From: Candidatus Iainarchaeum sp.
GTDB lineage: Archaea > Iainarchaeota > Iainarchaeia > Iainarchaeales > JAAZKV01
DNA: 34,496 nt
Assembly: GCA_028701835.1 (NCBI GenBank)
Contig: JAQVQA010000003.1
Coordinates: 5,673 to 40,168, forward strand
Reading direction: 5' to 3'
Below the pieces are notes generated by a model. That model was given only the letters and a program-made list of their open reading frames with translations, ran no database searches and was not told where the DNA came from. The position numbers were made by a program, and so were the translations under genes. Positions 3,001 through 17,439 of the stretch are shown here, piece after piece (position 1 is the stretch's first letter; every line of letters begins with the position of its first letter).

Positions 3001-4435
3001 CTCCATTAGGAAGATTTTTGAATTCAACTAAACCATTCTTATCAGTCGAAAGCGGTTCTAAAAACAAAGCATCAAATCCATTCTTTTTAATCGAAACAAC
3101 AGCATTTCTAATCACTTTATTTAAATCATCAATTACTTCTACTTGTAGAGTAGCTCCTCCTTTTGACATTATTACTTCTTGAGGCTCTTCGCCCGAAACT
3201 TTGTAAATTACATCAATTATTTTTGTTTCATAATTAGTTGCACTTATTATTGCATAATAGCTTCTATTATTCGAATCATTTAATGGATAGTGTTCAACAA
3301 GCCCAGAGTAACTTGAATTACGTTTAGCATAATAATTAAAATCATTATCTTTTTTGTAGTATAACCTCACTTCAGCTCCACTAACACCACTGTTTCCATC
3401 AATTAATTTTAAGTAAACTCCTTTAGCAGTTCCATTCAATATGGGTGCAACATAATTTGTGGTTACTTCTTCAAAAAATATTTCAACAGTTGTTGTTTGT
3501 CCAGTTAATATACTAAAAGAACCTGATTTTTGAGAACCAAGTAAGTTTGCAGTGTAAGTATATTCTCCTGGAGAATAATTTTTTGAAACTACTCCTGTTG
3601 AATCCAAAATCAAATTGTATTGTTTACCAAGTTCGTCAACAACAAGAATCATTGCTTCTTTTCTTCCCGAATTGCTATCAACTTCAAAAACCACTGTTCC
3701 ATTCAAATTAATTTTTTCAAGATTCAAAGTTTTATTCTCTTCTTTTGAACCAAGTAACTCTTTTTTTTCATTATACCCTTCTGCAATTGCTTTTAGTTGA
3801 ATTGATTCACAACCTTGAGGAATATTAATTAAGTAACCTACGGTGGATTGATCCTTATCCCCTACTAAAATCTCATCAAGTTTTCCTTCTTTTTCACAAA
3901 GCAAATACAACTCTGCTTCAGGAATTATATTTCCATTACCCTTGACTTTTACATTAACCATTCTAAGAACCGAAGTTATTGGAGACAAGTAAATCCTTGC
4001 TTTGTTATCTTCAAAAGAAATATCTTCGGATTTAGTTGAATAACCTTCTTTTGATATTCTTAGATAAGCAGAATCCGAACAAGCACTAAATTTTACTTTT
4101 CCTTCAGAGTTTGTTCTTAAAGAAACATCTCCTTTATTAGAACAATCTTGATTAAATGAAACAACAGCTCCACTAACTGGTGCTCCTTGTAGAGACAAAA
4201 CAGTTACTTCTGCTTCAAAAGAAACGATTCCTCCAAAACCACTTCCCCCACTAAAAAACAACAAACCAAATAAACCAAGTAAAATTAATACAAAAAGCGC
4301 AATGACTATCAAAAAACTAGGAACAACCTTGTCAATAGAATCAACTACATTAGCAACTGGAATATATTGATTTAACCAATCAACAAAATCATACCATTTG
4401 TCTTCTAAACTTGTGTAAATGTTAATAATAATCAC
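1..4435 (-). CDS. Giant membrane-anchored surface protein with carboxypeptidase-regulatory/Ig-like repeats; partial, C-terminus beyond window edge
   Basis: Open minus-strand frame from GTG at 4435 (VIIINIYTSLEDKWYDFVDWLNQYIPVANVVDSIDKVVPSFLIVIALFVLILLGLFGLLFFSGGSGFGG...) with one N-terminal TM, then beta-rich segments (SFEAEVTVLSLQGAPVSGAVVSFNQDCSNKGDVSLRTNSEGKVKFSAC). Frame spot-checked near 1-480, 1202, 2042, 3602 and 3960-4435 with no stops. In-frame TAA just upstream of the GTG. Not in the ORF track, probably because it runs off the edge. Confidence 0.85.
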   Translation of the reverse strand, partial: MIIINIYTSLEDKWYDFVDWLNQYIPVANVVDSIDKVVPSFLIVIALFVLILLGLFGLLFFSGGSGFGGIVSFEAEVTVLSLQGAPVSGAVVSFNQDCSNKGDVSLRTNSEGKVKFSACSDSAYLRISKEGYSTKSEDISFEDNKARIYLSPITSVLRMVNVKVKGNGNIIPEAELYLLCEKEGKLDEILVGDKDQSTVGYLINIPQGCESIQLKAIAEGYNEKKELLGSKEENKTLNLEKINLNGTVVFEVDSNSGRKEAMILVVDELGKQYNLILDSTGVVSKNYSPGEYTYTANLLGSQKSGSFSILTGQTTTVEIFFEEVTTNYVAPILNGTAKGVYLKLIDGNSGVSGAEVRLYYKKDNDFNYYAKRNSSYSGLVEHYPLNDSNNRSYYAIISATNYETKIIDVIYKVSGEEPQEVIMSKGGATLQVEVIDDLNKVIRNAVVSIKKNGFDALFLEPLSTDKNGLVEFKNLPNGVYEIEAKSSTHTGTMNSIQVSADKKVVLKLVTGTGNVKFNLIHEGKSTNAYCELYEKIDDENSLIHQALSTNGYIQAVSIKSEKKVYLVVNDSNFIYTQSPVVEVKRGNQTKELILYKESDLPNSNNVQMFLEGVYNSNPWVNNESKASNLLPGKKYYFLFTLITRASDPSIAVANVFVSPKDSNTIDANTKMYVEDAYSIKNSIVKKSLVMNSSIIEQDLLNTIPFDKAKQLNVYFGEVSGLVAYPILVEASVDLNAIGSTTLFWEGILGEEKSLLYSKEFIIGEKFCFGKGSCPEVLFSNYLRRIDSIDSSKNSEWVPAENYSNLQIGDSYELKVVVENLTDSDFGEIDLVGKVKSTSQTKITLDDDSNKVSSKINLKPFDKNNTVFKLNPIATTPTASIIESIEKGEELKNLKGNNEELKFDIKNKEDIVIQVIASRTPNVIYANYNYPYVYIKTSYKLEKVPVKTIWEVSVKGENNSPIRQGETDVNGEWVGAIDLSSYDEGTTLVFTAIDSNNSNPGYLEITLQKAFNDPITETVPDCISVKINGVNINEINNPLVYSKLGASGGSFTIESSCSDDREVLIQSDLGVSTGSRFPINAGETKTVTINDPSSIVSQRGGMLGAYPMQIMQIINKSKFNQIGFIDVIVSSDSSEFELINPIFDMTKTNSVSSKIINKANTNGERLDIYYPQMNIGTNSVGLTYTKPGVPETIKFNAVVKSHAIEAITHAYNYGSVINQTNRKDNCHSKTKLITPNELIFNDLAQDHTEYITDILMDKIESAAPIETPDADDRDPTKSLYVLPVPIQNKIRSELNATSGSISQTANTSKIIEDNELIYFAEDEEGEEEDEDDYEDDEEGFGGDLEGDPLKPKKGHIYEIIPNMAGGFSNSTCENGIPSVGCGSCSGAVEEEEFDEEFSEDFDEEESGDFVEESIEMELGEGEYSRECKKCEINYRRVSVNPIPPEGFDSEECKLGVVINELDYGGGFEEVEEVEGDLEE

Positions 4436-5449: not shown

Positions 5450-5555
5450 AGCCCTTAGTGGGATTCGGACCCACGACCATCGGTTAATTTACCAATAGGA
5501 CTATTAATCCCTATTAGATACAAAACCGGCGCTCTACCAACTGAGCCATAAGGGC
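5450..5555 (-). tRNA. tRNA-Thr(UGU) with 33-nt intron at 37/38
   Basis: Minus strand: GCCCTTA TG GCTCAGTTGGTAGAGC G CCGGT TTTGTA [intron TCTAATAGGGATTAATAGTCCTATTGGTAAATT] A ACCGA TGGTC GTGGGTTCGAATCCCAC TAAGGGC T. Acceptor, D and T stems complete; anticodon stem has a C27-A43 mismatch; discriminator U. Confidence 0.88.
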
Positions 5556-8352: not shown

Positions 8353-8445
8353 TTCAATAGAATTGATTTTAACATAATAAAAAGCTTGCTATAAACAATT
8401 TTTTTTTGATTTAGAACAAATCAAATTAATGACTGCTTCCTTTGC

Positions 8446-8577
8446 TGACTAACGTCAGTGGGTTTCCCCACAAATTGAAAAGTAGTTGCATACAAAACAA
8501 CATAATAAAACAAGGATTCATTTCACTCTAAAAGAGAGGGGGTAGTTTTCTTTAACCTTTATTAAAGATTGAATAAA
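8446..8577 (-). ncRNA. Candidate structured RNA / small repeated element, copy A (132 nt)
   Basis: Paralogous to 17308-17439: gagggggtagttttctttaacctttattaaa identical, and 40/42 across the plus-strand right end. Minus-strand hairpins GTGGG-GAAA-CCCAC and CTGAC-GTTA-GTCAG. Strand is tentative. Confidence 0.55.
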
Positions 8578-8615
8578 AAGAAATTATAATTAAGTTTGGA
8601 TATGAGTTATAGAAT

Positions 8616-11186
8616 TTAAGCATAATTATTGGTTTTTAAAAAAATTTTTTTATACACTTTTATACCTTCAAAAATAATTACTGCCATTAAACCAGCTATA
8701 AAACAATAAATTAAATCAATTAATTCAAGTGCTGAGAATGAGAATAATTCTCTAAGAAAAGGAACACTTAAAACTAATAGTAACAAAGTAATTGCAAATC
8801 CTGAAACAATATAAAGTGCTTTATTTGGTTTTGAAAAAGACTCTATTATTGTTTGAGTATTTGACCTCATAGAGAAAACTATTAACAAGTTAGCAATTAT
8901 TAAAACAGTGAAAGCAATTGTTCTTGCAACTTCTTCATTTGCCCCATTAATTAAAATGAATCCATATAAAGAAATTACTATTAATAAAACTATTACTCCT
9001 TGCAATAATCCTATTAACAAAGTTTTTTTATTAAAAAGAGGTTCATTTAATTTTCTTGGTTTTCTTTTCATAATATTTTTTTCTTCTACTTCTGCTTCGA
9101 AAGCAATTGAGCAAATTGGATCTATTATTAATTCAAGAAAAGCTATGTGTGCTGGAAAAAAAATTAGGGGCCAATTGAATAGAACTGGGAACAGAGCTAA
9201 ACCTGCAATTGGAATGTGAATTGCTATTATGTAAGTCATCGCTTTTTTTATATTATCAAATATCCTTCTACCCATTCGCACTGCTTTTACTATTGAAGCA
9301 AAATCATCATCTATTAACACCATTGCTGATGCTTCTCTAGCAACTTCTGTTCCTCTTGCACCCATTGCTATTCCAACGTGAGCAGATTTTAGTGCTGGCG
9401 CATCATTAACTCCATCCCCTGTCATTACTACTACTTCTTTATTTGCTTTCAGTGCATTCACTATTAAGAGTTTTTGTTCAGGAGCAATTCTCGCAAAAAT
9501 ATTAACGGTTCTTACTTTTTCTTTTAATTCTTGAGTAGTCATTTTTTCTATTTCTTCTCCTGTTAAAATTTCTTCTATTCCGCTTAAACCAGCTTGCAAA
9601 GCAATATGTTTTGCTGTTCCAGCATAATCTCCTGTAATCATTATTACTCTTATACCGGCTTGGTAACACTCTTTTATAGCATTTGGAGCACTTTTTCTAA
9701 CAGGATCTTGTAAAGCAATTAAACCAAGGAATTCAAATTCAAAATCATGCTGTTTTTTTGGAAAAATTAAGTCATTGTTTTTCTTTAACTCCTTTTTAAT
9801 TACTGCTGAAGCGACTCCAATTACTCTATACCCCTCATTAGAAAATTTATTAACTTGATTCAAAATATCTTTTTTACTTTTGTTATCCAAATGACACAAA
9901 TCAATTATTGCTTCAGGAGCACCTTTTGATGCTACAATGAATTCTTTCTTATTTTCACTTTCCCAAACTTGGGAAAGAGCAAGTAAGTGTTTTGAAAGAG
10001 GATATTCTTTTACTATTTCATAATCATCTTCTTTTATATCAGAAAGTTTTTCAAACACTCCTAACTTAATCGCTTTTTCCATTGGATCAAAAGGAATTTT
10101 TTGACTGGCTAAAACTGAATACTTTAATAATTTCTCAAATTTTTTTGGAGTAAATTTACTAGAAAAATCATATTCTTCCCCATTAGCAAAAGCTTTTTTT
10201 AACACCATTTTGTTTAGAGTTAAAGTACCTGTTTTGTCAACACAAAGCACTGTAGCAGAGCCAATGTTTTGAATTGAATTTAGTTTTCTTGTTAACACAT
10301 TATGTTTTGACATTCTCCAAGCCCCAAGCGCAAGGAATAAAGTTAAAACTACTGCGAATTCTTCAGGAATTATTGACATTGCAACAGCTAAAGCTGATAA
10401 TATTGAATCAATTAAATTATTAGTTGATAAGTAATAAAATATTATTATTAATAAACATACTAAAAAACCAGCTATCGCAAAAATCTTAATTATTTTTTTT
10501 GTTTCTTTTTGGAGAATAGTCTCTTCAGGAATTGTTTTTTGTAACTCTTTTCCTATCCCCCCAATTTGGGTTTGTACCCCTGTTTTAATTACTCTAGCAA
10601 CACCACTTCCTCCAACTATTAAAGTACTTGAATAAACAAAAGGAGTATCTTCTCCCCCCGCTGTTTTAAATTCTATACTCTCTTCACCCTCACTTTTTCT
10701 AACAGACAAACTTTCTCCAGTTAATAAAGATTCATCAACTAACAAATTATTTGATTGTAAAACTATTGCATCAGCAGGCACTCTATCGCCTTCTTCTAGA
10801 ATTATTAAATCTCCTTTAACTACTTCTCGACCAGGAATCTTTTTTTGAACACCGTTTCTTATAACTGAAGCTCTTGGACTAGAAAGGTCTTTTAAAGCCT
10901 CAAGGGCTTTCTCTACTTTTAACTCTTGGTAAATAGTAGTTCCTATTATTAGAATGACAAAAAAAAGTAATAGAAAAGCATCGTTTATTGAACCTAAAAA
11001 TAAGTACAACAAACCACAAATTATTAACAAGAGAAACATTGGTTCTTTTAATACATCAAGAATTATCATAATTAGAGTATTATTCTTTGAAGAGGGTAAT
11101 TCATTATAACCATTTTTTTTAAGCAATTCAATTGCTTTAAAATCACTTAAACCTGTAAAAGAATGATGCTTGAATATATTAACCAT
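8616..11186 (-). CDS. Cation-translocating P-type ATPase (P2-like)
   Basis: DKTGTLT phosphorylation motif, LLTGES, MITGD, GDGVNDAPALK; PEEFAVVLT in the TM4 region; LIIDPICSIAFEAE. Confidence 0.93.
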   Translation of the reverse strand: MVNIFKHHSFTGLSDFKAIELLKKNGYNELPSSKNNTLIMIILDVLKEPMFLLLIICGLLYLFLGSINDAFLLLFFVILIIGTTIYQELKVEKALEALKDLSSPRASVIRNGVQKKIPGREVVKGDLIILEEGDRVPADAIVLQSNNLLVDESLLTGESLSVRKSEGEESIEFKTAGGEDTPFVYSSTLIVGGSGVARVIKTGVQTQIGGIGKELQKTIPEETILQKETKKIIKIFAIAGFLVCLLIIIFYYLSTNNLIDSILSALAVAMSIIPEEFAVVLTLFLALGAWRMSKHNVLTRKLNSIQNIGSATVLCVDKTGTLTLNKMVLKKAFANGEEYDFSSKFTPKKFEKLLKYSVLASQKIPFDPMEKAIKLGVFEKLSDIKEDDYEIVKEYPLSKHLLALSQVWESENKKEFIVASKGAPEAIIDLCHLDNKSKKDILNQVNKFSNEGYRVIGVASAVIKKELKKNNDLIFPKKQHDFEFEFLGLIALQDPVRKSAPNAIKECYQAGIRVIMITGDYAGTAKHIALQAGLSGIEEILTGEEIEKMTTQELKEKVRTVNIFARIAPEQKLLIVNALKANKEVVVMTGDGVNDAPALKSAHVGIAMGARGTEVAREASAMVLIDDDFASIVKAVRMGRRIFDNIKKAMTYIIAIHIPIAGLALFPVLFNWPLIFFPAHIAFLELIIDPICSIAFEAEVEEKNIMKRKPRKLNEPLFNKKTLLIGLLQGVIVLLIVISLYGFILINGANEEVARTIAFTVLIIANLLIVFSMRSNTQTIIESFSKPNKALYIVSGFAITLLLLVLSVPFLRELFSFSALELIDLIYCFIAGLMAVIIFEGIKVYKKIFLKTNNYA

Positions 11187-17120: not shown

Positions 17121-17307
17121 CTTAATTAAACTAAAAAAACAACCTTTATTTAACTCTTTTCTTTAAGACAAAAAAAGAACTATTCACTAAAAATTTAAAT
17201 TAAACAAAAAATAATTAGCCGACAAAAATACACAATAATTATCAAAGGATTTTTTATAAGTTAAATAAAATTTATTTATATAAAAACAAATAAATTGTCC
17301 TTTTTTT

Positions 17308-17439
17308 TGACTAAAATTGGCGAATTTCCCTCACAATGAGAAGAAGGTGCGTACAAAACAGTATAATGCAACAAGGGACGCTTTTGCACCCTAAAAGGAG
17401 GGGGTAGTTTTCTTTAACCTTTATTAAAAGTTGAATAAA
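17308..17439 (-). ncRNA. Candidate structured RNA / small repeated element, copy B (132 nt)
   Basis: Same length as copy A, starts TGACTAA and ends TTGAATAAA (plus strand); shares the 42-nt block; minus-strand hairpin GTGAG-GGAAA-TTCGC kept through wobble/compensatory changes. Confidence 0.55.

Follow-up and report, generated by a model that had tools for sequence, protein, structure and literature searches.

The repeated unit of about 140 nt that occurs twice in the window (the whole analysed stretch of 34,496 nucleotides, contig C19, positions 5673-40168, of the source genome) is best explained as a decayed, non-autonomous palindrome-associated transposable element (PATE) with IS200/IS605-type ends, a reading to which a probability of roughly 0.75 is assigned. 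The repeat is best seen as what is left of a small transposon; a role as a functional RNA or as a leader sequence is improbable. Seven copies are scattered through the source genome, the sister species lacks the element at all four orthologous sites that could be compared, and the right end is IS200-like. This would represent a burst of non-autonomous IS200/IS605-type elements in an archaeal genome of 0.74 Mb in which no matching transposase was found, and recognizing it guards against taking the repeat for a novel small RNA or riboswitch. The defining features of PATEs are near-terminal palindromes and the lack of inverted terminal repeats, target duplication and transposase (PMC3119063).

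Copies and architecture of the element

The source genome (G000; 741,671 bases in 52 contigs, 89% complete) was compared with a sister species (G001), with G002-G004, which serve as outgroups at the XerA site described below, with G009 (like G004, a member of the same archaeal family) and with G048, from the same order and another family. The nearest named relative of a neighbouring protein is found in archaeon ADurb.Bin336 (unclassified Archaea in NCBI), at 88% amino acid identity. Genome size suggests that the organisms compared here belong to the DPANN archaea. Copies were sought over the whole source genome by blastn and then with a sequence model, and seven were found, 53-72% identical in pairwise comparison. 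Copy A lies on the minus strand at window positions 8430-8571 (about 142 nt), as delimited by the repeat alignment and by the alignment with the sister species, and copy B, also on the minus strand, at 17294-17433, delimited by the repeat alignment. The blastn and model searches place the others at C24:984-836 (C24_900), C24:8508-8359 (C24_8400), C25:1625-1778, C38:4864-5019 and C42:14262-14111. Six copies are close to one another (60-72% identity) and share 53-60% with C42. All seven open with TTATT(C/A)AA, and most end near GYAGT. Two further matches were rejected: one on C29 sits within an ScpB gene, and a partial blast match on C45 lacks a hairpin.

The first-pass annotation had described a 132-nt pair, aligning 8446-8577 with 17308-17439. 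That repeat is real over both stretches, and the 40 identical bases of 42 at one end were recovered by counting from the sequence; between copies A and B, one ungapped block of 52 nt is 77% identical and another, of 47 nt, is 91% identical (blastn E 1e-24, 83% over 115 nt). Where two copies had been proposed there are seven, and the unit reaches about 16 nt past the proposed lower limit, to about 8430, since both the other copies and the empty site place it there. No open reading frame of at least 60 amino acids lies inside the element of about 140 nt, which is too short for a transposase.

Read on the minus strand, copy A is preceded by the target-like pentamer TTATT (8572-8576), which stands before all seven copies (at 17434-17438 for copy B); the G048 copies described below are preceded by TTTAT. 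The left tip is formed by hairpin H1 (8554-8570, AATCTTTAATAAAGGTT), closely followed by GAAAAC; it is present in all copies and perfect in G048. Next comes H2 (8526-8541, CCCCTCTCTTTTAGAG), a candidate left subterminal palindrome that is decayed in copy A, forms a 9-bp hairpin in G048 and a 6-bp one in C42. H2 could be the left palindrome, with the GAAAAC just 5' of it as its guide. Also on the left side, and internal to the conserved unit, is a C-rich/G-rich complementarity, ACTAY/RGYAGT; as a long-range closing stem it was rejected, the pairing being mostly pyrimidine against purine with little covariation. On the right, GGAA (8464-8467), a candidate guide, occupies the same position in the G009 IS200 and in G048. 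The right subterminal palindrome H5 (8445-8458), the minus-strand hairpin CTGAC-GTTA-GTCAG of the earlier reading, is indeed present; its loop, YTTTAG in general form, and its flanks are as in both ends of the G009 IS200. It is decayed in copy B. The terminus (8430-8444, AAAGGAAGCAGTCA-like) resembles AGGATGTCA of the IS200 right end, and the alignment with the sister species resumes at 8429. Taken together, H1, H2 and H5 are near-terminal palindromes without terminal inverted repeats, clear in G048 and decayed in most source-genome copies.

The general form of the right end is GGAA, a hairpin with a TTTA loop, and AGG..GT(C)A. It reads GGAA-ACCCACTGA-CGTTAG-TCAGCAAA-GGAAGCAGTCATT in copy A, GGAA-CTTGCGCA-CTTTAG-TGCGCG-GAGGATGTAATATT in G048 and GGAA-GCCCACAC-CTTTAG-GTGTGG-GAGGATGTCACATT in the G009 IS200, the last two sharing the terminus GAGGATGT. 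Between G048 and G009 these ends are of equal length, the stem differs in sequence and stays paired, and the rest is identical except near the end. The right end thus matches the G009 IS200, and the left end has no autonomous match. A scan of 84 kb with the pattern G.AA, hairpin with TTTA loop, GGR gave five matches against 0.33 expected (in C24_900 and C24_8400, in a single G048 copy and at each of the two ends of the G009 IS200), a ratio that is only indicative because the thresholds were set after the sequences had been seen; extension to 592 kb added one other match.

Outside the source genome, a sequence-only model (R1) was run against 52 relatives, and two copies in G048 were convincing. 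They are diverged, 125-135 nt long, and share with the source-genome element the left tip (TTTATCAACCTTT...AAAGGTTGGCGAAAAC) and the right hairpin (CACTTTAGT). What supports homology is that a second copy exists and that the sequences match position by position; the model E-value is only 4e-4 for one genome. Most other weak matches that were inspected looked like chance, the exception being an H1-like hairpin in G002 (L095). No copies were found by blastn and the sequence model in four congeners and five other family members, and blastn of a G048 copy gave no match among plasmids and phages. Exact-motif scans of GTDB contigs and IMG/VR were empty; these collections may omit the source genome and its nearest kin, and such scans miss diverged copies. 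No Rfam family matches the element at gathering or relaxed thresholds.

As DNA, the two G048 copies are much more stably folded than shuffled sequences (z -5.9 and -5.5). The seven source-genome copies fold no better than shuffles (z -1.6 to 0.5; -1.4 for copy A and 0.1 for copy B), and RNAalifold returned a weak consensus of -3.1 kcal/mol for six of them. The six close copies differ from one another by 28-40%, about as much as fourfold-degenerate sites do between the source genome and its sister (30%, 122/408). Neutral drift following an expansion around the time of the species split would produce such values, which do not allow close dating of the insertions. The source-genome copies appear to be inactive relics drifting neutrally.

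Empty sites in the sister species

The sister species shares about 85% DNA identity and the same gene order with the source genome, and its empty sites make the insertion history directly readable. At all four testable sites (A, C24_900, C42 and C24_8400), gene order is conserved and the element is absent, occupied in one genome and empty in its relative as expected of a mobile PATE; from this absence it follows that the element was mobile. At one of these sites the missing stretch has nearly the exact size of the element. At C24_900 the flanks align to base 839 and again from base 990 of L059, where the sister has 9 intervening bases; by explicit split alignment the insertion measures 142 nt. 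At C42, which lies upstream of XerA, positions 4109-4254 are missing in the sister and the split alignment yields an insertion of 157 nt. At site A, window positions 8430-8625 face 51 bases in the sister, the alignment ending at 8429 and resuming from 8626; the best split bounded at the element tip gives a 145-nt insertion, although slightly higher scores are reached with splits at other positions. The element is likewise absent at C24_8400, but the intergenic stretch aligns badly there.

Upstream of XerA the outgroups G002-G004 are also shorter, and gain in the source lineage is therefore favoured over loss in the sister. At the other sites, loss by precise excision in the sister could also account for the difference. 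The pentamers at the empty sites, TAATT (A), TTGTT (C24_900) and possibly TTGTT (C42), are each one base off TTATT. No target duplication is visible at C24_900, A or C42, where 15% divergence and AT-richness make the junctions ambiguous.

Two further sites are rearranged in the relatives. At site B the sister species (L154/L156) lacks the element, and the corresponding intergenic stretch contains an extra gene; at site C25 archaeon ADurb.Bin336 (L149) lacks the element and has an additional gene there. Both extra genes resemble a gene elsewhere in the neighbourhood.

Transposition model and competing explanations

In IS608 each hairpin has guide bases on its 5' side (right guide GR GAAT, CR TCAA), and insertion takes place 3' of TTAC (PMC5934647). 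The element is similar in having two subterminal hairpins with candidate guides 5' of each and in its position 3' of a T-rich sequence (a tetranucleotide in IS608), its target being TTATT or TTTAT instead of TTAC (PMC5934647). By analogy with IS608, a Y1 transposase acting in trans would recognize the subterminal hairpins when the top strand, which is the minus strand of the window, is single-stranded. It would then excise the element and reinsert it 3' of a target resembling TTATT, and no target duplication would result. To our knowledge, IS608 has no extra hairpin at its left tip.

Closer at hand are the IS200 elements of G009 and G004 (L150-L153), whose right ends share with the element the GGAA/GAAG and the hairpin with the (C)TTTAG loop, and in G009 also the AGGATGTCA-like terminus; unlike it, they encode a Y1 transposase, and their left ends differ from its H1-H2. 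An element with IS200/IS605-type ends, the alternative raised earlier, is supported, the right-end hairpin matching a Y1 IS200 of the same family, the sites of the sister being empty and Rfam giving no match. The PATEs of Haloquadratum walsbyi (PMC3119063) resemble the element in lacking terminal inverted repeats, in their near-terminal palindromes, non-coding length and IS605-like ends, and in showing strain-specific insertions; no target duplication was seen in those PATEs, and none is visible at the ambiguous junctions here. The present case differs in belonging to another archaeal lineage, in having only seven copies, all decayed, and in that no IS605-type transposase was found in the genome. 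An ends-only IS605 derivative has also been described in Halanaerobium (PMC7290912).

Some findings count against the PATE reading. Neither a Y1 transposase (PF01797) nor TnpB (PF07282) nor an autonomous element with both ends was found in the 89%-complete source genome; PF01797 was likewise not found in G001-G003, and genes of this family are present in G004 and G009. The left end has H1 right at its tip, a departure from IS608, in which a guide precedes the first palindrome on its 5' side. The mismatched pentamers and blurred junctions of the empty sites weigh in the same direction.

The first-pass annotation had suggested an independent small RNA or a leader of the antiporter gene, and neither is supported. 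A leader or riboswitch of the downstream gene (the cation antiporter for copy A) is scarcely tenable. Copies A, C24_900 and C25 do stand about 78 nt before a co-directional start codon, but the genes that follow are unrelated (the antiporter for A, an SPFH protein for B, ribosomal L15e for C24_900 and a DHH protein for C25), and C24_8400 and C38 run into convergent genes, an aIF5A-like and a GIY-YIG gene, respectively. This arrangement gives no support to a leader serving one kind of gene, a constant position before co-directional, related genes is not seen, and the context already largely refutes the idea; moreover, the antiporter gene of the sister species has no such leader. A family of small RNA genes with their own promoter, duplicated in the source species, is unlikely. 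The copies are intergenic, a TTTAA-A region is conserved before a C-rich start, and the G048 copies fold strongly; against this stand the empty sites of the sister, the shuffle-like folding of the window copies, divergence like that of neutral sites, the lack of a conserved promoter upstream of the unit, and the absence of an Rfam match and of copies in congeners. Of the features that had suggested an RNA, the hairpin GTGGG-GAAA-CCCAC exists in copy A and is peculiar to it. The TATA-like TTTAATAAA, placed about 25 nt before ACTACCCCC, starts 20 nt before it and overlaps both loop and stem of the conserved hairpin AAYYTTT-AAK-AAAGGTT, which the distant G048 copies retain without a TATA-like loop.

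The IS200/IS605-type right end is also where the guide of an omega-RNA would come next, and G048 shows several serial hairpins; a stand-alone omega-RNA-like scaffold left by a TnpB element, with each copy's right flank as guide, is nevertheless rather improbable, given that no TnpB was found in the 89%-complete genome, that both ends and a target-like left flank are present as in a complete mobile unit, and that structure is lost in the window copies. Movement by a tyrosine recombinase is very improbable. Copy C42 lies about 55 nt upstream of XerA (L099:4318-5268), the one tyrosine recombinase that the genome search matched. Strong XerA orthologs, however, turned up in almost every relative searched, also where the element is missing, the sister species lacks the element at this very site, and no shared core site or duplication was seen.

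The left-tip module near tRNA genes

In G002 and G007, an H1-like hairpin (CARCCTTT-N3-5-AAAGGYTG) with the tail RCGAAAAC precedes a putative tRNA-Tyr gene, without the remainder of the element; H1 may therefore not be a transposon end. In both G002 (L095:1473-1574) and G007 (the integrase-side stretch of L142, minus strand) the module follows a partial duplication of the tRNA 5' end (CCCCCCKTAGT). The tRNA at the G002 locus was called by Rfam; its assignment as tRNA-Tyr and that of the G007 locus as a tRNA were read by eye. The modules beside the tRNA genes may be remnants of the same element or an independent motif. It is possible, if doubtful, that the left-tip module is a separate conserved mobile or RNA motif in these archaea and that the seven-copy element is a composite of it with an IS200-type right end.

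Two other observations were made in passing. A tRNA at window positions 5450-5555 (minus strand), apparently with an intron, was recognized by Rfam and not by ARAGORN. At L061:3392-5866, a polyprenyl synthetase gene is split by an intein with a LAGLIDADG domain (Pfam).
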